Origin: Xylona heveae TC161
Taxonomy: Eukaryota > Ascomycota > Xylonomycetes > Xylonales > Xylonaceae
DNA length: 64,000 nucleotides
Direction: 5' to 3'
Assembly (NCBI RefSeq): GCF_001619985.1
Contig: NW_017264195.1
Location: 1,984,001 to 2,048,000 of the forward strand
Numbering within the stretch: the first letter of the stretch is position 1; the number at the start of each line of letters is the position of its first letter. Shown here in pieces: positions 12,003-60,548 of this stretch. Under the pieces are notes generated by a model, which saw only the letters and a program-made list of their open reading frames with translations, was not told the DNA's origin and ran no database searches. A program made the translations under genes and the position numbers.

Positions 12003-15000
12003 ATGCCGGTACGACGACCAGGGCAGCCATACCGACATGTCTTCAAGAATGGACAATCCTCTTATGGGGCTCGACGCACCAAGACCGTCGAGGCTTCCAG
12101 CCTCCGCGCCAGCGAGGCCACTTCACAGAATGAAAAGGCCGAGGCGGTGAAACTCGCCCACAGTATTGACGAGGCAATGGGGTTTGCGCGATATGAATCT
12201 GGAAAGCCGAAAATGGGATGGCTGTGCAACATGCACAGTACCTCAGTCGAGGATGAGGCTGTACCTGCAGGACGAGCAGGTGTGGATTTCTACTTCATTG
12301 AGGAGGATGGCGGCACATTTAAGGCTACGGTCGAATATGATCCTTATTTTCTGATTGCTGTCCGAAGAGGGAAAGAGGAGGAAGTAGAGGAATGGTGCAA
12401 GAGAGCATTCGAAGGAATTATAAAGGGGATCAATCGGGTAGAGAAGGAGGACTTGCAAATGGTTTGTTTTATTTCATTTATATGATATCTGACCATGTCC
12501 CCAAACACTAATTTGTGTGTTTAGCCAAATCACCTCCTTGGATACCGCAGAACACTCCTGCAGCTGCGTTTCGCCAACGTTGGGGATCTTCTGGCGGTAA
12601 GAAAGGTTCTCCAACCGATTGCGGATAAGAACAAGAAAAGCATGAATGCAATGGATACATATGCCGAGGTCGCCAGGTTAGTACCCAATTGAACGATAAT
12701 TGAGCTGACTTTTGATTTCTAACATGCGTTCACTTTCAGTGCAAATGCTGGTTTTGATCTCTTTGATGATGAACGAGAACACGACGCACGATTTACTGGA
12801 ATTGCAGATGCAAGCGATTATATTGTTGATATTCGAGAATATGATGTTCCTTATCATGTACGGGTCGCAATTGATAAAGGTATTCCTGCCAACATGATTC
12901 TCTAAAACGGTTCCGGGCTGATTATGTTCAGATATTCGTATTGGAAAATGGTACACTGTCGAGGCCAAGCATGGCGTTATTGGATTAACTTGCATAGAGG
13001 AGCGTCTACAGCGAGCCGATCCGGTGGTCCTGGCCTTTGATATTGAGACTACCAAATTACCTCTAAAATTTCCCGACTCTGCTTTTGACCAGATCATGAT
13101 GATATCATACATGATCGATGGCCAAGGATTCCTTATCACAAACAGGGAGATTGTCTCTGAGGATATTGCCGACTTTGATTATACCCCTAAACCAGAGTAC
13201 GAAGGCCCCTTTATAATCTTCAACGAACCAGATGAAAAGGCAGTATTGGAACGATTCTTCCTTCACGTCAAGGAGGCCCGACCCACAGTGATTGCAACAT
13301 ATAACGGAGACTTTTTCGATTGGCCATTCGTTGAGGCCCGGGCAAGCATTCTAGGAATTGACATGTACCGGGAAATTGGATTTCGCAAGAACAGTGAGGA
13401 TATATATCATAGCGACTATTGCGTGCATATGGATTGTTTTGCCTGGGTCAATCGAGACAGCTATCTTCCTCAAGGGAGTCGAGGTTTGAAAGCCGTCACG
13501 GTTGCAAAGTTAGGCTACGATCCAGACGAGTTGGATCCAGAATTGATGACAATGTAAGGTTTCCCATTTAGACTTTTTCGTTCTACGAATGCACAGGCTA
13601 ATTCCTTTTAGCTATGCCTCAGAACGCCCGCAAACCCTTGCAGAATATTCCGTTTCAGATGCTGTGGCGACTTATTACCTGTACATGAAATACGTGCATC
13701 CTTTCATCTTCTCCCTGTGTACGATCATTCCACTGAACCCTGACGACACATTGCGTAAGGGAACAGGAACGCTGTGCGAGATGTTATTAATGGTGAGAAA
13801 GCATCTTGAATTATAAGCATCAACATTCGCTGATCCGTGATAAGGTACAAGCATATCAAAAAGAGATCTTGCTTCCCAACAAGCATCAGGCTCCAAAAGA
13901 GTCATTTTGGGAGGGACATCTTGTAGAAAGTGAAACATATGTCGGCGGCCACGTTGAGAGTATCGAGGCTGGCGTATTTCGAAGCGATATTCCAGTCAAC
14001 TTTGCGCTAGATCCCTCGGCATTTGATGAACTTATCCACGACCTAGACGCCGCTCTCACGTTTAGCATCACTGTTGAGGAGAAAAAATCCATGGACGATA
14101 TTGCTAATTACGATGAGATCAAAGCGCAAATTGTTGAAAAACTGCTCAGTCTAAAACAAACTCCGAATCGACACGAAAGGCCATCTATTTACCATTTGGA
14201 CGTCGCGTCCATGTATCCAAATATTATGACGACAAACCGTCTGCAGCCTGACTCAATGATTCAGGAATCTGACTGTGCTGCCTGCGACTTCAACCGTCCT
14301 GGTAAAACGTGCGATAGGAGGATGCCATGGGCGTGGCGAGGAGAGTTCCTTCCTGCGAAACGCGACGAATACAATATGATTCGACAAGCATTAGAAAACG
14401 AAAGATTTCCTGGAAAGCGTCCAAACGCGCCAAATCGGACGTTCCAGGATCTTACAGAAGACGAGCAGGCTTCTTTAATAAAGAAGCGGTTACAAGATTA
14501 TAGCAAAAAGATTTACCACAAGATTCACGACGCCAGAACAATCGAGCGCGAAGCAATTATTTGTCAACGAGAAAACCCGTTCTATGTCGACACAGTCAAA
14601 AATTTTCGAGATCGACGATATGATTTCAAGGGACAGCAGAAAGTCTGGAAAAATAACACGGACGCCTTGAAGTCTTCAGGCGCAACAAGTCTCGAGATTG
14701 AAGAGGCAAAGAAAATGATTATCCTTTTTGATTCTTTGCAACTTGCTCATAAAGTCATCCTCAACAGTTTCTACGGGTATGTCATGCGAAAGGGTTCGAG
14801 ATGGTATTCAATGGAGATGGCTGGAGTGACCTGTTTGACTGGCGCGCGCATTATCCAGCTGGCTCGATCCCTTGTTGAGAGGATAGGGAGGCCACTTGAG
14901 CTCGATACCGATGGTATTTGGTGTATTCTTCCCGGCACGTTTCCAGAGAACTTTGCTTTTACATTGAAGAACGGCAAGAAGCTTGCCGTCTCGTATCCTT

Positions 15001-18000
15001 GTGTGATGTTAAACCACCTGGTACACGAGCGATTCACCAATCATCAGTACCAGACTCTCGTGGATCCTGTCACATTCAGATATGAGACGCACAGTGATAA
15101 CACCATTTTCTTCGAAGTCGATGGGCCTTACAAAGCCATGATCCTTCCCACATCCAAAGAAGAAGACAAGAATTTGAAGAAGAGATACGCTGTTTTCAAC
15201 CACGATGGCTCACTAGCTGAGCTGAAGGGTTTTGAAGTAAAGCGGAGAGGCGAGTTGAAGCTCATCAAGATATTTCAGACACAAATTTTCAAGTTCTTCC
15301 TCGAGGGCACGACACTCGCCGAGACCTATGCATCTGTTGCAAAAGTTGCAAACCGATGGCTTGATGTTCTGTATCAGCACGGTTCTACGCTGGCGGATGA
15401 GGAACTTATTGACCTCATTTGCGAGAATAGGAGCATGACGAAGACCCTGGAAGAATATGGCGGGCAAAAGTCAACCTCTATCACTACTGCACGCCGCCTT
15501 GCTGAATTCCTTGGCGAGCAAATGGTGAAGGATAAAGGGCTGAATTGCAAATATATTATTTCAGAGAAACCCCGTCATGCGCCGGTCACGGATCGAGCCA
15601 TTCCTGTAGCCATCTTCTCGGCAGAAGAACCCATAAAGCGGTTTTTCTTGAAGAAGTGGCTCCGAGAAGACCCCGGAGACATGGACCCCCGAGATGTAAT
15701 TGATTGGGATTACTACTTGGAACGTTTGGGGTCTGTCATCCAGAAGCTGATCACGATTCCAGCCGCTCTGCAAAAGATTCGTAATCCTGTTCCGCGCGTT
15801 GCGCACCCGGATTGGCTTCAGAGAAGAATCAATACAAAGGACGACAAATTTAAGCAGAAGAAAATGACCGACATGTTTGAGAAGAAAACACTTGCGGACA
15901 TTACCAACACTTCTTTGGAAACGCGCGTGCCCGACTTTGAAGACTTTGGCGTGAAACCACTTACGAAACCCAAGAACGGTGTCCTGACAAAGATGTCGCA
16001 GAAAAGAAAAATTATCGAACCATCCACTCCGCAGAATCTGGATCCTTATGCCAGCCTACCAGCTAAGATACCATCAATTTCAGAAGACTATGAGGAGTGG
16101 CTGCAGTATCAAAAGAAGAAATGGAAGATCCAGAAACAAGCTAGACTGCGCCGGCGACAGCTCTTTGGAGAGCGTAACAATGCTTCGTCGGATGCCATTG
16201 GCAGCTTTTTCAGAAACCAGGCTGAAATGCTGTTTGTTGGTACCTGGCAAGTACTTCAGCTGCGTGAAACTGAAACTCCCGGATTGGTCAACGCTTTTGT
16301 ACTTATCGACAAGAAGATTCATAATCTCAAGGTAAAGGTGTCTCGACAGGTTTATCTCAATCTCAAGAGCAAAGATTTGCCAGATGTCGATGTCGAAGGC
16401 TGCTCAGTGGAGAAAGTCAACCACACCTTACCAAATGGTCATCCGTCTGTCCATCTGTTTAAATTGACCATGTCCGAAGAAACTTATATCAACGAGGCGA
16501 AGAAGCTAGCTCTTCTATTCAACCATCCCAGTGTCGAAGGAGTATACGAGAAGCAGCTGCCTCTTAATGTCCGAGCCGTGCTTGAGCTAGGTAACCTTTG
16601 TACCATCGATTCCAGTCAACGCGGCGTACTGGGTAAAGGATTGGAACAAGGTTTTGATCTTTCAGCTCTCAAGCAAGCAGAAGCAAAGCAGCCATATCTT
16701 CAGCAGTCGCCCCTTGGATATGTCTTTTTGTATCACATTGTCACGAGCATGCGCCAAGTCTTTGCGCTTTTCTCCACCACGAAGCAAGAAGCCCATGTGG
16801 TTGTGCTGAACAAGTCTCGCGAAACCAACAACTTCCCAAACATTGACAGGATTTACTCGGAACAACTAGCCAACGCCTTGGAAGAGGCTGGTGGAGCGCC
16901 GTGGCAGAACTGTATCGATTATCAAGAGAAGATTCACTTCAAGATAACACAGGTTACCACGAAGCGAAAGGCGCAGCTCGAGTTGGGAGATTTGCTGAAG
17001 AAGATACGCAATGATGAGAGCGGGCCACTGATGTTGGTCGTTCAATCACCGCAGCGCCGCGTCCTAGAGCATGAAATTCCGATGCTAAAGGAATTTCCGA
17101 TCATGGCGATAAAACCTGATCCTGATGACGGTACGCTTCCGGCCCTTGAATGGGAAAAGTTCTTTGCGCATAAACGGATTGTACCTCGCTATCTTTCTCT
17201 AGGATCCTGGATATCCCATCTCATAGAATTGGCCAGATACGGAGATGTTCCACTATGTAATTTGGAAAAAGATGATCCACGATTCCTGATTGATGTTGCA
17301 TATGCTCGTCGATTGCAAAAGAACAATATTGTCCTTTGGTGGTCCGCTGGCCCGCGGCCAGACCATGCCGGATATGAGAAAGATGATGTCGTCAGTAGAA
17401 TGGAAAAGGTCGATATGCCTTCGGTCAATAACCCAGGCACCTATTCGTCCGTTTGCATAGATATCGAGGTTCGAAATCTGGCAATTAATACCATCCTCAC
17501 CTCGTCTCTCATCAACGAGCTCGAGGGAAGCGATTCGGTCTCACTCAACCCTGCTGCACCTGCCGACGATGCGCCAAGTGACGGTACCAATGTAATTTCC
17601 GCCGATAATGCATTTGCCTCTGCTGGGGTTGGGGTGCTCCGCGAGATGGTCAAGGCCTGGTGGACAGAAGCTTGCAAAGGCAGTGACCTCGCAGATATCA
17701 TGGTACAACATCTAGTGCGCTGGGTCGAAAGTTCCGAATCGTGCATGTACGACCGCGCATTACATTATTACGTGCAGATCATGTCCAAAAAGGCATTCCA
17801 GCAGCTCATGATGGACTTTCGTCGGGTGGGATCACATGTCGTCTTTGCAAACGCGAACCGTCTACTGCTGCAGACCACCAAGGCCGAAGTCGGTAATGCA
17901 TACGCGTACAGCCAGTATATTCTCAAGTCGATCAAGTCCCGGCCGCTATTTCATTTCCTCGACCTCGAAATCAAAGAATACTGGGACTACCTGGTATGGT

Positions 18001-19031
18001 ATGACGACTTCAATCACGGCGGCAAAGCTTGCCAAGAAGTCGTAGAAGCCGAACAACAGGACCTACACACCATCATGCACTGGCAGCTCAGCAAATTCCT
18101 CCCGCCTGCGCTCGAGACGGTCTTCAACGACTGGGTAATCGAATTCATAGAGCTCATGCACGATGCCAAGCGGCCCAAACCTACTCTAACCGCCGAAGGG
18201 GTAGCCATCTCCTCCACCCCATCCAACACCACCGTCCGTCTCACCCAACTGCCTGTCCGCGCTGGCCTCAACCCCGAGAAGGAGCAGGAAATCTCCAACG
18301 CCATTCTCGGCAGCAACTTTGAAAAGCCACTCAAAAAACAAATCGCTGCTCTCCTTCGTCGCCAAAAAGAGGAAATGTTCCATCCCTCACTCGCATCAGA
18401 CTACATCTTCCCCCACCTCCCTGGCTCTCACCTCAACCTGACAAATCCCGTCCTCGAACTCGTCAAATCTCTCATGCAAATCCTCAGTCTCGACAAGAGC
18501 ATCACGCTCTCCGCGCGGCTCTTGCGCAAGGAGCTCCTCGCCCTCTTTGACGTCCGCGAATTCGCCCCCGAAGCGCGCTTCGTCAACCCCAGCGAATCGC
18601 TCCTCATCGAACAAGTCGTCTGCGAAAACTGCACCCACGCGCGCGACTGGGACCTCTGCCGTGACGAGGCCCTCTACCCAGAAGACCCAACCCCGGGTGG
18701 TGCAAGTTCCACCGAGAGACGCATCGATTTCCGCACGTGGCGCTGCGAAATGTGCGGCACAGAAGTCGATCATTTGGCCATTGAGCAAATCCTCATTGCC
18801 CGTGTCGAGAAACTCGTCCTGGAATGGCAGGTCCAAGACCTCAAATGTGCCAAGTGCGGCGCCCTCAGAGTCAATGACTTCCTCGACCATTGCTCCTGCA
18901 GTGGTATTTGGAAACCAACTGTCGATCGCACCAAGAGTCTACGGTCCCTTAAAGTTATCAGTAACGTCTCCAAGTTTTATGGCTTTAGAATGTTGACTGG
19001 TATGGTCGAGGAGGTTGTCGGTGGATTGTAG
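12003..19031 (+). CDS. pol2: DNA polymerase epsilon catalytic subunit Pol2
   Basis: Six exons: 12003-12461, 12525-12676, 12740-12879, 12932-13553, 13612-13792, 13845-19031, giving 2246 aa, the normal size for the family. The exonuclease ExoI motif is [15 protein letters not shown], with Asp287 and Glu289 as catalytic acids. Polymerase motif A is [10 protein letters not shown] (Asp637), motif B is [20 protein letters not shown] and motif C is DTDGIW (Asp872/Asp874). Three cysteines of the catalytic-domain iron-sulfur site are seen at 662, 665 and 674. The C-terminal half is the inactive polymerase-like module and ends in two cysteine clusters, near C2111/C2114 (CENC...CEMCG) and C2186/C2189 (CAKCG...HCSC). 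It is the leading-strand replicase and a checkpoint scaffold by homology. The start [18 protein letters not shown] is the first ATG in a frame open to the first intron. Confidence 0.97.
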
Positions 19032-25579: not shown

Positions 25580-28500
25580 CTAGCTGAAGTATGCTCGAAC
25601 AGTCTGCTGAGTCTCTGGGGTGAGCTGAGCAAGGAGCTGGGCAGGATCGAGACCCGCAGCCCCGACGAGGTGCTTAGCCGCAGCGACAACACGGTTGGCG
25701 GTTTGGCCTTGAATGGTTTCCGCTTCAAGGGCCTGAGCGATGTATACAAAAGACTTGGCAGCCTGAGTAGGATTGTATACTGCAGGGTTTTGTCTGGAGT
25801 CGTATGTTAGCATCACGAATAAATTAGGTCCGTAGCTGTTGTCGAGGGGTCCTGTCCTGGTCCGGGCGCTAAATTAGAGCAAAAGAATTTTCGGACTTAC
25901 TTCTCAATCAGCTGTATGAGGAAAGAATACGCATAAGGAGCAGCCTCTTCATCGTTGACAATGGGGAGTGTGTCGATCCAAGCATTAACAATCTCTTGCA
26001 CGTTCGGAACCTTGGTAGAATTGAAGTGAAGGATTTTGGCAATACTGGCGCAAGCGTTCTCAGTAGCAAAAACGTGATCGTCTTCCCGAGCTTGACCGTG
26101 CTGGGTGACTGCAAAAAGCGTGGGGAGACTGGCGGCCACGAACTCGGACCAGGGCTCCCCACCGAACTGCGCGGCTACACCTACACCGTAGGAAGCAGCT
26201 TGTCGGTTAGCGGCAACGTCATCCTGCATGCCCGCGATCATAGGTTGGATGATGTGCTGGCTATAATTCCACGATTGCGGCCCGCAGAATTCGAGCACAT
26301 CGTCCATGATGCAGAGAGCCCACTGGCGCTGCGTCGGATCCTGGTTCGTAAGGAAGGTTGTATAGAAATTCAGAAGACGTTCCCAGTGAGGCAAGAAAGA
26401 AGTGCCTTGGTTCTTGAAGATGGTGTGGAAAGCCTTGTTCATATCTGAGAGGAGGGTCTGATCGTCTTCAATAGCAAAGAGAGTCTCCTCAGACTCCTCT
26501 TCGCCTGGCTCGCGCTCCGCTTGCTCCTCTAGACGACCGGCAACACGAGTTTGGTACTCCTCGAGAGCAGATTTGGCGGACTCGATAAACTTATTCATGT
26601 GGTCTGCCGAGAGGCAGTTCTTACCCATAACCTCCACCGACTCATAAAAGCATTGATACATTTCGGCCAAGGTGTCAACTGTAGGCTCAGCCATTAGCAC
26701 TTCGAGAAGCTTGTCAACTGTGCCAGCCCAGAGCTGAGCAATCTGTGGTGATTGGTCACCGTGTGCCTTCTTGTATGAGCTGAGGAGCTGCGGAATACAC
26801 TTGGCAGACGAAACTCGGACAGGTTCGTGGAAGAAGAACGCGAGTCCGGGTACAGCAACCTTCTCCATGATCTCAATTACATACGGCTCAAAGGCGGCCT
26901 CGAGAGTTTGAGCATAGATGGTGATCAGCTCAATGGCCATGTTCTTGTCGTCCAGAGTGGCGGTTTTGATACCAATAAATTTGCCACGCAAAGGAACAAG
27001 CTCCCAACCTTCCTCGGATTCCATCTGAGCCACCTGCTCCTCATCGTCGAGAAGCTGAATGTCAGCCTTGGCACTAGCAAGCTCCATCAGGGGAGGCATG
27101 ACAAATGACAAGTACGGCAGGAATCCTTGGCGCAGGACACGGCACATTCTCCCCCAACAGTGAGGCAGGTAGGTTGCCTGAGGATCATCGGCGTCAATGA
27201 CAGTTTGCTGAATTGCTGCCAACACCTGCAAAAGAGCAATTGCATCTTGCCCCATTTTCTGCTCGCCCACAGCCAGAGCAATCAGCGTCGCACACTCCAT
27301 CGCTTTCGCGCGCAGCAATCTATATTCCTTAGACTGTTCCTCCCGTAGAACGTTAAAAAGCAAAGGCATAAGGGTATCATAGTATTTTGAAAAGGCAGTC
27401 TCGGCCGAGTCTGCAACAGTGGCGATTGTTGACAGCGCTTGTTCCTGGACGAAACGCTTTGGGCTCTGAAGAAGCTGAAGAAGATGGCTAAGGAGGTCAT
27501 CAAGATAAGGCTCCAGGATGCTCTTCTCGGCTTCCTCGCAGAAGTTGACAAGCGCCGCAGCAGCATGTGCCTGAACGCGCGGCTCGGTCGATTCGAGAAC
27601 CGGGATAATGTTTGCCATGACAATCTGGTGGTATTTCTCCTGCATTGTACCGGCAAAATCTGTGCTCATTTGGCCTATAGCATTGCATCCGGCCCATCGG
27701 ACGCGAGAGTGCGGGTCTCGCAGAGCGGGAACGACAAGATCCAAGACCTTGTCGAGTTCACCGACCATCAACTCCTGACATCCCTCAGATATGGCTGAGA
27801 TGGCCATGAGGGCAGCGTGCCGGTCTCTCCACGCAGAAGAGGTCATCATACGGGGAAGCCAATTAAAGGTCGGCGGCAGGATAGTCTGGCCTCCGAGTTT
27901 ATTGGCCAGTCTGTCCATCGTCTGCTCGCCAGCAACGTGATTAAGGTCACTGTCTTCAATATCAAGATCTTCGGATGCGTTCCACTCAGCCGCATCGTCG
28001 TCGTCCATGCCAATGTCCGTCATTAAGCTCAAGCACTGAGTAACCATCTCATTCGTGTAAGACGGATCCTTTCGGCACATATCCCGATCATAGTCGGCAA
28101 AAGTAGCCATTAGTTCCAACGCATTTTGTCTCGTCTGATCCTCCAACTCCTTATCCTGGATGACCGTAATGCTGAAAGTCACCAAGTTGTGGAAAAGGTG
28201 CTTGAACATTCTTGGCGCACTTTCGGCAAGATCGATCAAGGCCATGAGAGCGCGAGAGAGCTCATCTGAGTCTTGGGCATCTTTCAGAGGAGGGAGAATG
28301 TTGAGAATGTCCGGAATTAGAGAGTAGTACTTCCTCCGCGATTTTGAATCAATGGCTCTGAAAAAGGAAGCAATGGCCTCTACGGCAGCCAGGCGAACCT
28401 TTGAAAATGTTAGCCATGAAAATCGACACGCAAAGCAAATTTATGTCCTTACAGAGATGTCATCATCCTTGAAGCCTTTCGAGAATGCGCCAAGGACCAT

Positions 28501-42064: not shown

Positions 42065-43886
42065 ATGCCTGCCATGTTAGAGGATCCTAGCGCTCCCATC
42101 TTCTACCGGCAGTCGGGCCCTCCACCTTATCCCAGCGCCTTTACGCCTCTTCCTCCGGAGATTGTACCGTACCAGGTTACCTTGCGCGATCGCATTACCA
42201 TAGCTACGGTGATCCCGTTCTCCTCGCCCGCACAGGTCCCCCACACGCTGCTTGCATACCTGAGCGACCAACTAAATCGCGAAATTGAGCTCGGTGATAC
42301 ATATCCCATGATTGAACCGATTCCCCTCGCGAATTTTGGGCCCTATTGGTTCAACAATTTCGGCGCGGTGATGCTGCTAGGTAGCATTGACTCAGCGGAA
42401 GAGGTTGCACAGATGGAGCGCGAAGGGAAAGATTGGGAGCGGGAGTGTTTGGGGAGTTTCTACATCAAACCGAATTACCCCGGTCGCTCTAGCCATGTAT
42501 GCAACGGAGGATTTCTAGTCACCGATGCAGCGCGCAATCGAGGTGTAGGTAGATTAATGGGTGAAAGATACGTAGACTGGGCTCCTAAGCTGGTACGTTT
42601 GCCTCTATTGACTATTCTCCGGCACTTGAAATACTGCCAATCAATTGGAGGATTGCGTTTGCTGACCGTATTTCCAGGGTTATTCTTACTCGGTGTTTAA
42701 CCTTGTTTATGAGACAAATGTGGCATCTTGTCGCATCTGGGACGCCTTGGGATTCAAGCGCATTGGCCGGGTCAAGGGCTGCGGAAACCTTCGCTCGCAC
42801 CCCTCACAACTCATCGACGCAATTATTTTCGGCCGGGATCTCGGTCCAGAGGGCGAGGATTTTGTATCAGAAGAACGGTTTGATAAGATTCGGTATTACT
42901 TAAAGCATGGCAAATACCCAAATGGTGCCGACCGCGCCGAGAAAAGCAGGCTGAGAAGCGCAGCGACTCATTACAAATTGATGCCTCCTGTCAATGGCGG
43001 AGATGGGCCGGAGCGGCTCATGCTCAAGGATAAGGAGGTTGTTTCGGACCCTCAAAGGCAGTATGAAATTGCGCGCTCTGTACACGTTCAGCAGCATGGA
43101 GGTATCAACAAAACCACGGCAACTATTGCAGAAAAATATCACTGGGTCCGTATCAAGGAAACTGTCAGTCTTGTCATTCGCAACTGTGCAGATTGCAAAG
43201 AACTCGCCAAAGCGCCGATTATTGGCGGGCCCAAGCGGAACAGTACCGCTGTGTCTCCGGCTCCGACCGCAAACGTTGTTTCCGGTCCGCCAAACTCCAC
43301 GCCGCACGTTTCCGCCGCGGGGCGGATTCTCAGCCTCTCCAATACAGGATCGCCATCCGCACGACCAACTTCGGTTCCTTCAAACGCCCATACAGGCATG
43401 TTGCATCCCCACAGCGTAGCGCATCAGTTGCAACAACATGCGCAGCATATCCCGCAACCACAACACAATGCAACACATTTCAACCCTCATCAACAACCGA
43501 CGCCATTACTACCAGACTTTCCTCTCGACCCCCAGATTATGGAAGATGTGCAGCATCATCTCACATCTTACTCGGCGTCACCACATCCTTCCGATCCCAC
43601 CGGTCATCCTGACACGGATCTAGCTCTCAAGGCGTCCGCCACAGCCGCCGCTCGTGCGGCTATCGGCCATCTCCCGTCCGGTCATGACCCGCACCATACC
43701 CATACCCATCATCATGATCCTGACGCGGACGCAGACGCCGATGTGGACCCTGATGCTGACGCGGACGTCGACGCAGAGGGCGATCCCGATGGTGACCATG
43801 AAGAAGAGAGCGCTCGGGAAAGAGATTTGAAGCACCAATTGTTTGTGGCTGGGTTTGGAACTGATGCCGATGCATATGTCGGTTGA
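42065..43886 (+). CDS. spt10: SPT10-like GNAT acetyltransferase with integrase-type zinc finger
   Basis: Two exons, 42065-42592 and 42678-43886, giving 578 aa. The N-terminal half is an N-acetyltransferase domain: YIKPNYPGRSSHVCNGGFLV leads to the acetyl-CoA loop TDAARNRGVGRLMGE, and SVFNLVYETNVASCRIWDAL-GFKRIGRVKG is the usual GNAT C-terminal strand-helix. A second domain has His312, His316, Cys346 and Cys349 (HVQQHGGINKTTATI...YHWVRIKETVSLVIRNCADC), the HHCC fold of retroviral and retrotransposon integrases. This architecture matches yeast Spt10, which binds histone-gene UAS elements through such a finger; the same function is inferred here. The rest is low-complexity: Q/H-rich, then an aspartate-alanine run (DADADADVDPDADADV). 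The first ATG of the frame (MPAMLEDPSAP) was chosen as start. Confidence 0.85.
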
Positions 43887-57069: not shown

Positions 57070-57380
57070 CAATCTGTCGTTCTGTCAAGCATCACGGCTG
57101 TAAAGCACAAGGAACAAGGAACGACGAACAACGCGAACGCGAGGTTCTGGGCCTGGTGTTTTGCCTACGGGTTGCGATTGTCTACCTACGACTCTACGAG
57201 GTCCTGGCTGCCTACGGGGTTTCGACAGGAAGGTTGACAGGCGGATAGAATTCAATCTGTCAGGTATCACGGCTACGACACGACATTCTCTTTACCTACG
57301 AGATTTTACATAGAGGTTTCGACAGAAGAAGGAAGAAGAAGGAGGATTGACAGACGGATAGCTCTGTCAAGCACAAGGCT
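57070..57380. repeat. Imperfect tandem repeat units upstream of UNC-50
   Basis: Shared blocks recur in order. TCTGTC plus a CACGGCT-like block occurs near 57075, 57256 and (degenerate) 57364. TTTCGACAG...TTGACAG-CGGATAG occurs at about 57220-57246 and again at about 57317-57361. CTACCTACGA-like sequence precedes each of the latter. The unit is roughly 100-180 nt and copies differ by short insertions. Confidence 0.65.
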
Positions 57381-57383
57381 GTG

Positions 57384-57476
57384 GCGGACAACGGACAACG
57401 AACAACGAACAGCGAACAGCGAATAGCGAGCAGCAACCGCAAACAGCAGACAGCAGACAGCGAACATTGAACAGCA
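57384..57476. repeat. CGAACAG/CGGACAA-type heptamer repeat
   Basis: About twelve degenerate units of a 7-nt motif (CGGACAA, CGAACAA, CGAACAG, CAGACAG) in tandem. The tract is nearly free of T, consistent with an unstructured leader. Confidence 0.8.
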
Positions 57477-57639: not shown

Positions 57640-58957
57640 ATGAATGCATATATTTCCTCGCCGCGACAACATGGCGTGCCGGCCTTTGGAGGCATACATG
57701 CTGGACGAAGCGAAGGGTTCAGAATGCCTCAGTTTTTCAAACGGTATGATTAACGGACCTCGAGTGTGAGACTGGACACTGGTGTTCGCGCTATATGGAT
57801 AACAAAAATCTACGGGGGATACATGACGAAGATGTAGGACTGAAGCTGATCGAGGTTCTCGTACAGGTTATTCAAGCTCTCGCAGATGGACTTTGAAATG
57901 GCCGTGTGGGAAATGACGAGATTGATTGTTGCACCGAAAAAGGTCTTTCGGTCGGTGTATTATCATGTATGTCCCGCCGTCTGTCATGTTCACAACCCCA
58001 TAAATCCTCGACTTATTACGTTCATTGTACTAGCTGGAGACAGGTTTGCTAACAATGTCCGCAGAAACGTAAGGCCTCGATTTAAGAGCTCCAAGCTTCC
58101 GCCCCGAGACCACGCATGCTAACATTTGTAGAAACAAAAAATACTTGGCATCGACCGGACCCGTCATTTACATATCTCTTGTCCTTTTTTCTCCTCTTGA
58201 CCGCCCTCGCGTGGGGTCTCGCATACACGTCATCCGCAACAGGAGTAGTCCGTCTTACGCTCGTCTTCATATTTGTACATTTCCTCGGCGTGTCGCTGCT
58301 GGTCTCGACAATCGCCTACTTTCTCGCTGGACGAGTATTGGGAAACACAATTGCCGGACTGCCTGGCCGGAGAAGGCAAGGCCTGTTTGAGCCCCGAGGC
58401 GGCGATCAGCTCGAATTCGGATACTGCTTTGATGTAAGCCTGCCAAGCCTATCCCATATTTTAGACTGCTCTTGGTCAATTAAGGCCGTAATTCAGGCTC
58501 CATGGTACTATATGACAGTTGCTAACATGAATAGGTTGCGATCCGCGCATATTTCCCCGTGTGGGTCTTTCTCTATGTCGTGCAGTTCTTTATGATGCCG
58601 TTATTATCCAAGGATTACTGGTATGCGCCCCGGGAGACCGACTGAGTATGATAGTCAAAAGCTGACTGGATTAGGATATCCATTTTCCTCGGCAACACCA
58701 TTTACCTTGTTGCCGCTGGGTATTACACGGTCATCTCGTTTCTGGGATATAACGGTATGCTAGGAAATATAACCCCGCCATTTGTACAATTGCATTGTAT
58801 GCTAATTACGTTGCCAGCGCTCCCTTTCCTTCACCACACTGAACTTCTACTCTTCCCCATCGTGGTGTACCTTGTGCTCTGGCTCGTCAGCCTCATTGGC
58901 GGCTTCAACATTGCACGACACGTGGCACCTGCATTCCTGGCCGGCGCAAGAGGATAG
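57640..58957 (+). CDS. gmh1: UNC-50 family protein (Gmh1-like Golgi membrane protein)
   Basis: Seven exons: 57640-57743, 57867-57966, 58065-58068, 58132-58433, 58535-58620, 58675-58754, 58818-58957, giving 271 aa. The hydrophilic N terminus MNAYISSPRQHGVPAFGGIH leads to the family core RLFKLSQMDFEMAVWEM. After PKKVFRSVYYH the conserved KQTKNTW is rebuilt only if a 4-nt exon (AAAC) is included. Then follow membrane helices SFTYLLSFFLLLTALAWGLA, LTLVFIFVHFLGVSLLV, AYFPVWVFLYVVQFFMMPLL, IFLGNTIYLVAAGYYTVISF and LLLFPIVVYLVLWLVSLIGG, with the family motif FLGYNALPFL. Yeast Gmh1 binds the Arf exchange factor Gea1 at the Golgi; animal UNC-50 is needed for acetylcholine receptor traffic. A Sec7-type Arf factor is encoded 7 kb upstream, but co-location is probably chance. 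Confidence 0.9.
58065..58068 (+). other. gmh1: 4-nt micro-exon of the UNC-50 gene
   Basis: AAAC flanked by GCAG and GTAAGG. The upstream intron is 57967-58064 and the downstream one 58069-58131. Both carry TTGCTAAC/TGCTAAC branch sites 10-15 nt before their acceptors. Inclusion changes the frame from an unrelated one to the family motif K-Q-T-K-N. Confidence 0.75.
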
Positions 58958-59430
58958 TGAATGGATATTAGTCCTGGCTCGATCACTTGGGTGTGTCATT
59001 CAACAGATCCATATCACGGCCTTTCCGTAAGCTGCTCCTCGAAAACGGGTCATATGACATGTGCGACTAGATATCTACCAGTCGCCAGAGGGTCATCTAA
59101 TCTAGATCCCACTGGTGGCTTGCTTCACATTTTCTGCATACCTCGGCGTTGGGTCCGGCGTCAATATGGCGTTCGTTGTTGCTGTTCTAGTGTTTTCACC
59201 ATTGTTATCGTCTTTCTCTGTTCGTAGCGTACCGGCATTGCATCGAGTTTTGCGTGAAAAAGCCTCTGAGCATGTACAGTACAATTACCAATAACATACC
59301 TGTAACACATGGCATATCTTCTCTATAGTATCCCTGAAGAGTCGAGAGCTGTTCCAATCCAGTGTCCGACCAGTCACAGGTCACGTTTCACTCCAGTTCA
59401 CATCCATTCAACTATCCCTCTTTGTATAAT

Positions 59431-59471
59431 GTATTGCATTGTATTGCATTGTATTGTGTTGTATTGTATTA
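59431..59471. repeat. ATTGTATTGC simple repeat
   Basis: Alternating GTATTGCATT and GTATTGTGTT/GTATTGTATT units, about four copies, in the UNC-50 3' flank. Confidence 0.85.
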
Positions 59472-60548
59472 TCTTGTCTTGTTTGCAATGTATTCTTTCC
59501 TCTCTTTCGTATAGACATTCGTGTGTCCTATTGTCTCGTTTCCCATCTTTTGTATAGATGTTCAAGTCAATCGAGGTATAGCTGAGGTAGCTATAGCTAT
59601 CCCGTAGAGTTATAATATCTACCTAGTAGTTGCAGCAACTACTGGATAGTAAGTGGTAATGTCCCGCTGTTTAATATTTCCTCAACGCCCATCTAGGTAC
59701 GGACGACCGAGGGGTAAGCCAACGTTTATAATTATATTCTGCCCTCCAATTTCCCCTCCAAGACTATCTATGGGATTTTATTATTTATTTATTTGTGAAA
59801 ATAAACAAACAGAAACAGCCAGAGTGAATATGAAGGGTATCGTATTCTGAAGAAGAAAAGAAAAAAAAAAGAAGAGGAAAGGGAGCGAGCGAGGCGAGAG
59901 AGGTTTTGTGTGGAGCGGACTCGGTTGGAACGAGCGAGGGAAGAGGCTGGAGTTACCCGGTGAGTTGTGAGTTGTGAGGTTCTTGTTTAGGAAGGTTAAG
60001 CGAGTACTTGTAGACACTGAGCCTGCGAGACACACACAGAGAGGGAGCGAGGGGAGAGAGGAGGTACATGGGTAAGAGGGTACAAGGTACGTACCTTTAG
60101 TGTCTGGCCAATGAGATGTGGCGTAAATACAACACGTACAATTACTTGTACTCCGTACTTGGTGTGCAAAGTTGGTGAAAGAAAAAGTTGAAACGTACTC
60201 CACATAAGGTCATGAATCTGAAGAGATTAGTAGAGATGTAAATGTGACTCAGATTTTCAATATCGATATATAATATATAATATACAGATACTAGGATTGT
60301 AAATATACTCTGTATTACTTGTATAAGGTATGCCACGACCAAGGATAAGTTACCTACCCACCTATGGTAGTTGAGATGGGCCTGGCCAGTGACTTGTCAA
60401 ACGAGATAGAGGGGCACAGGCACAAGCACAGGCACAGACGCTGAAACATATTGACCTGCCCGACCCTGCCGACTTGTGTTGTAAATAATTCACTTCCAAC
60501 TTCCCCACACGACACAGATTGAAGGTCAGTCACCACGCACTTCCCCTG

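Follow-up and report, generated by a model that had tools for sequence, protein, structure and literature searches.

Exons of only a few nucleotides have been described in both fungi and plants. In the available excerpts of these papers, the CYP621A P450 genes of Fusarium contain a 1-nt exon that is found in 20 orthologues and supported by RNA reads in two species (PMC12940212), and the duplicated lipS genes of Dactylellina haptotyla contain 3-nt exons (PMC5639578). A constitutive 1-nt exon in Arabidopsis APC11 was demonstrated with GFP fusion constructs (PMC4674806), 1-nt exons are described in both APC11 and VPS55 (PMC8831610, PMC4674806), and a 4-nt micro-exon in the rice gene LOC_Os02g54020 is supported by RNA-seq and RT-PCR (PMC8831610). 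Larger examples include the shortest exon of the Phanerochaete P450 genes, at 6 bp (PMC1184071), and a 20-nt switch micro-exon in Trichoderma virens Xlr2 with glucose-dependent inclusion (PMC11121469); in PMC8022950, micro-exons appear only as a mapping option. For APC11, Guo and Liu judged exon definition very unlikely and proposed intron definition with recursive splicing (PMC4674806). Ascomycete introns are mostly small, implying intron definition, as shown by the excision of stwintrons in filamentous ascomycetes (PMC6616335).

Here we analyse a 4-nt exon, AAAC, predicted in an UNC-50/GMH1-family gene of Xylona heveae TC161 within a 64,000-nt stretch of DNA (the window). The reading frame, the match to the protein family and the splice signals indicate that this exon is probably real. 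Among the matches listed in the open-access literature on micro-exons and stwintrons, there is no report of a micro-exon in UNC-50.

The UNC-50/GMH1-family gene and its surroundings

The gene lies on the + strand and is predicted to have seven coding exons, of which AAAC is the third, with a frame that runs uninterrupted to the stop codon (Table 1). Translation of the spliced product gives 243 residues if it starts at the ATG at 57724 and 271 if it starts at the in-frame ATG at 57640. With AAAC included, it matches PF05216 (Pfam UNC-50) at 289.2 bits (E 2.6e-86) across positions 1-217 of the 221-position profile, nearly its whole length, against a curated Pfam cut-off of 22.1 bits. By this profile match, the gene is a member of the UNC-50/GMH1 family, the identity that a sequence-only reading of this DNA had given it. 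That reading had also placed the exon exactly, at 58065-58068; CCGCAG stands before it and GTAAGG after it. We define a micro-exon as an internal coding exon of at most 15 nt, and AAAC would fall within this class, having complete splice signals on both sides and restoring both the frame and conserved residues when included.

Table 1. Predicted coding exons and introns of the UNC-50/GMH1-family gene, in window positions
Feature	Position	Strand	Details
Exon 1, coding part	57640..57743	+	frame open from 57640, in-frame join to exon 2
Intron 1	57744..57866	+	123 nt, GTATGA...TACAG
Exon 2	57867..57966	+	...KKVFRSVYYH at end, phase 0
Intron 2	57967..58064	+	98 nt, GTATGT...TTTGCTAACAATGTCCGCAG; branch site TGCTAAC; acceptor CCGCAG
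Exon 3, putative micro-exon AAAC	58065..58068	+	Lys codon and first base of Gln
Intron 3	58069..58131	+	63 nt, GTAAGG...ATGCTAACATTTGTAG; branch site TGCTAAC; acceptor TTGTAG
Exon 4	58132..58433	+	phase 1 start, Gln completed: (C)AA ACA AAA AAT ACT TGG = QTKNTW
Intron 4	58434..58534	+	101 nt
Exon 5	58535..58620	+	
Intron 5	58621..58674	+	54 nt
Exon 6	58675..58754	+	
Intron 6	58755..58817	+	63 nt
Exon 7	58818..58957	+	TAG stop 58955-58957

The UNC-50 family has a role in Arf-GEF recruitment. UNC-50 is a Golgi membrane protein with a role in receptor trafficking, according to the excerpt of PMC4349650. A search of PDB sequences with the UNC-50 protein returned no matches up to E 10. The ATG at 57640 lies 28 codons 5' of the one at 57724, and the intervening segment (57640-57723) would supply a longer N-terminus (MNAYISSPRQHGVPAFGGIHAGRSEGFR-); either start is possible, and in the 243-residue form the Pfam match starts at residue 4.

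By eye, imperfect repeats of low-complexity appearance (e.g. CGAACAACGAACAGCGAACAGCGAATAGCGA) occupy 57100-57450, 5' of the gene, and a run of TTGTATTGCATTGTATTG-like repeats lies just 3' of it at 59420-59480. Elsewhere in the window, an 847-residue open frame on the minus strand (25897-28440) encodes an importin-type HEAT-repeat protein. The open frame at 13797-19031 (+, 1744 residues) encodes a DNA polymerase epsilon catalytic subunit, with a score of 1772 bits against a catalytic subunit of solved structure. The open frame at 42666-43886 contains Asp/Ala/Val/Pro repeats (DADADADVDPDADADVDAEGDPDGD) near its end, at about 43700-43800, that are of low complexity and possibly variable in length. 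An Rfam scan of the 64-kb window gave no matches at the gathering score. The genes present and the shortness of their introns suggest a filamentous ascomycete.

Frame, family match and splice sites at AAAC

Exon 2 ends in phase 0 and exon 4 opens AA-ACA-AAA-AAT-ACT-TGG, leaving a direct join 1 nt (modulo 3) short. Insertion of AAA-C adds a Lys codon and, with its final C, begins a Gln codon, giving HKQTKNTW and a frame free of stops up to the end of the gene. UNC-50 proteins carry a K-Q-T-K motif. The central claim of the sequence-only reading, that the direct join of exons 2 and 4 is out of frame and that AAAC produces SVYYH-KQTKNTW, is borne out by the translation. The predicted junction is CAT-AAAC-AAACAAAAAAT with the micro-exon and CAT-AAACAAAAAAT when it is skipped. 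Without AAAC the protein reads HKQKILGI... and meets a stop within exon 4, and its PF05216 score is 59.9 bits versus 289.2. All four incomplete products end early, at 90 residues (AAAC skipped), 124 (intron 2 kept), 74 (intron 3 kept) and 119 (both kept) versus 271 for the longer full form, which means that production of the protein would require efficient inclusion.

We scanned 16 other versions of the protein against PF05216, consisting of five readings derivable from the DNA by a different gene structure or one added base, a version reading HVETKNTW, and ten masked, substituted or shortened controls. All 16 scored below the 289.2 bits of the AAAC model; the HVETKNTW version, which can be obtained only with non-canonical intron ends, reached 282.7 bits. 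Masking both K and Q cost 7.1 bits (3.8 for K alone and 3.3 for Q alone), whereas conservative changes cost 1.4 bits (R for K), 1.8 bits (K for Q) and 2.0 bits (E for Q). As masking costs more than conservative substitution, the profile is better evidence that two residues belong here than for which residues they are, with a mild preference for K and Q.

Introns 2 and 3 each contain a complete donor, a TGCTAAC branch site and a pyrimidine-AG acceptor, and the sequence-only reading was correct in assigning each intron its own branch site and acceptor. Splice sites were scored with a matrix built from 15 introns of the window, in which training donors range from 6.6 to 11.2 and training acceptors from 3.8 to 7.0. 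Among all GTs in 57930-58139, the donors GTATGT at 57967 (6.4) and GTAAGG at 58069 (4.5) rank first and second, and the acceptors at 58131 (5.5) and 58064 (CCGCAG, 3.5) are the best two AGs in the same interval that have an upstream branch-site match. Compared with the 15 training introns, GTAAGG (4.5 versus at least 6.6) and CCGCAG (3.5 versus at least 3.8) fall below every one and GTATGT (6.4) is slightly under the lowest donor (6.6), a comparison that is partly circular in that 13 of the 15 introns had been chosen by consensus pattern and all were scored in-sample. Two unused acceptors, at 58033 (5.6) and 58043 (4.0), outscore CCGCAG, and both lack an upstream branch-site match. The splice sites bounding the 4-nt exon are adequate, not strong, and at best moderate.

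To gauge how often such an exon arises by chance, we generated 5000 versions of the 165-nt interval between exons 2 and 4 by dinucleotide shuffling, with 6 bases at its start and 25 at its end held fixed. A candidate yielding HKQTKNTW appeared in none of the 5000 with strict sites and in 0.56% with loose ones (any AG and GT). Strict frame-restoring exons of up to 60 nt occurred in 1.1% of shuffles and those of up to 10 nt in 0.36%, while with loose sites 86% contained a frame-restoring exon of up to 60 nt, which makes frame repair alone weak evidence. The real interval holds three loose candidates and one strict candidate, the latter being AAAC. The case for AAAC is carried by splice-site quality together with the residues it supplies. 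When both strands were scanned, the AAAC site was the single place in the window with a pair of strict introns separated by 1-12 nt, with a choice of two donors upstream. Shuffled windows (n = 200) contained a mean of 0.05 such places, with at least one place in 4.5% of them. The strict single-intron pattern is weakly specific (32 in the window versus a mean of 23.5 in shuffles).

Alternative gene structures and a model of splicing

We consider it very likely that AAAC is a constitutive 4-nt coding exon whose two flanking introns are removed consecutively by intron definition. The frame mismatch could instead reflect a sequence error, in which a single 165-nt intron spans 57967-58131, the assembly has lost a base in an A run (or a copy of AAAC) at the start of exon 4, and the upstream AAAC is a coincidence. 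Exon 4 does open with AAACAAAAAATAC, whose run of six A is of a kind prone to assembly errors, and adding one A gives HKQKNTW in frame at 279.3 bits, still a good family match. That protein is, however, one motif residue short and 9.9 bits under the AAAC model; the variant with an extra AAAC copy yields a protein identical to that of the micro-exon model and is indistinguishable from it by score. An error would also leave the splice signals at AAAC to chance, against the absence of strict HKQTKNTW candidates among the 5000 shuffles and the mean of 0.05 double-intron places per shuffled window, and the 1744-residue DNA polymerase epsilon frame in the same window has no frame break, which speaks for a sound assembly. 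On balance such an error is very unlikely. A different structure that keeps the frame, either a single intron with other ends or another small exon (ACAG at 58040-58043 or CTGGAGACAG at 58034-58043), appears very improbable indeed. As many as 22 single-intron GT/GC-AG structures do preserve the frame, as do the two other loose small exons, yet by inspection KQTK follows SVYYH in 0 of the 22 peptides. We scored one of these 22, which uses the donor at 57967 with TAAGAG at 58088, adds 13 residues and reaches 274.6 bits; the rest were set aside by their peptides and splice sites. The ACAG and CTGGAGACAG exons give 283.5 and 277.6 bits, and their acceptors (58039 and 58033) have no upstream branch-site match.

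The 165-nt stretch contains two donors and two acceptors, an arrangement also compatible at first sight with a stwintron, in which a splicing element (donor, branch site or acceptor) of one intron is interrupted by a second intron and the two are removed from the inside out, leaving no exon. Stwintrons are known from filamentous ascomycetes such as Aspergillus, as the excerpt of PMC6616335 describes. Here, in contrast, each of the two units has a full set of donor, branch site and acceptor and is independent of the other; removal of all of 57967-58131 breaks the frame, as in the skip product. Among the nested combinations examined, which are a part of those conceivable, we found no internal intron that interrupts a splicing element of an external one with no exon between them, and we regard this structure as extremely improbable. 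The 4-nt exon proposed by the sequence-only reading is thus favoured over the rivals tested by frame, family fit and chance tests, with splice sites that are only moderate.

Under the constitutive micro-exon reading, introns 2 and 3 would be ordinary short U2-type introns, each recognised across the intron, and their excision would be successive, since an exon of 4 nt could not hold two spliceosomes simultaneously. Removal of intron 2 first would leave ...CATAAAC|GTAAGG, and removal of intron 3 first would leave ...CCGCAG|AAACAAAC; each should be a normal-looking substrate, and both orders would lead to the identical final product. With intron definition, the 4-nt exon itself need not be recognised. 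We infer from the sequence that AAAC is spliced in, that its inclusion is constitutive, and that splicing is sequential and efficient. The exon might alternatively serve as a regulated all-or-nothing switch, kept because the order or efficiency of splicing sets the amount of UNC-50/Gmh1. On this account, which we consider decidedly unlikely, skipping the exon shifts the frame, its length not being divisible by 3, and the resulting 90-residue dead end would be a target of nonsense-mediated decay.

As to origin, the constitutive micro-exon would exist because two introns sit 4 nt apart within the codons of a conserved motif, and such spacing could result if a new intron was inserted next to an existing one. 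We looked for signs that introns 2 and 3 are tandem copies and rejected the idea: the highest-scoring local match between them covers 8 nt, TGCTAACA, at the branch site, with a score of 16 that was matched by 14.9% of 1000 shuffles, and introns 2 and 4 align with a higher score of 23. The recurrence of AAAC in the exon and in the first bases of exon 4 follows from the codons AAA CAA ACA, making a duplication unnecessary. Nelson and Syed suggest, in the excerpt of PMC12940212, that intron sequence can be recruited as a tiny exon, restoring the frame after base loss; recruitment of this kind is a possible origin for AAAC. Scans of prokaryote contigs for UNC-50 proteins gave 56 and 264 pattern matches with none confirmed, and in viral contigs the protein scan gave five pattern matches with none confirmed and the DNA pattern none, both collections being uninformative on conservation in fungi.

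Annotation and known tiny exons

If confirmed, AAAC would be among the smallest fungal exons and would join a short list, in a host gene that is conserved and probably constitutively expressed. It also carries a warning for annotation, as a gene caller that misses AAAC must truncate or distort the UNC-50 model, and the same fault could hide in the UNC-50 genes of related fungi. The sequence-only reading had further held that the way the spliceosome defines such an exon is of mechanistic interest. This was overstated: going by the excerpts of the papers concerned, 1-nt and 3-nt exons are known in fungi and plants, and sequential intron-definition splicing has already been proposed for one of them (PMC12940212, PMC5639578, PMC4674806).

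Judged from the same excerpts, the CYP621A exon resembles the UNC-50 exon in occurring in an ascomycete, in having been inferred from a phase mismatch, and in lying within a conserved protein motif, and it too was missed by annotation. It differs in being 1 nt long with support from orthologues and RNA, whereas the putative UNC-50 exon is 4 nt. Dactylellina haptotyla is a filamentous ascomycete. Its lipS exons are similar in size to that of UNC-50 and belong to a different gene; skipping their 3 nt keeps the frame, whereas skipping the 4 nt of UNC-50 breaks it. The Xlr2 exon, also from a filamentous ascomycete and also missed by annotation, is five times as long and is regulated by glucose. 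In plants, the APC11 exon is constitutive, as the UNC-50 exon would be, and the exon of rice LOC_Os02g54020 has the same length as the UNC-50 exon, was likewise missed by annotation, and truncates the protein when omitted. Tiny exons, some of them smaller than 4 nt, are already known, fungi included, and the UNC-50 case would add one.
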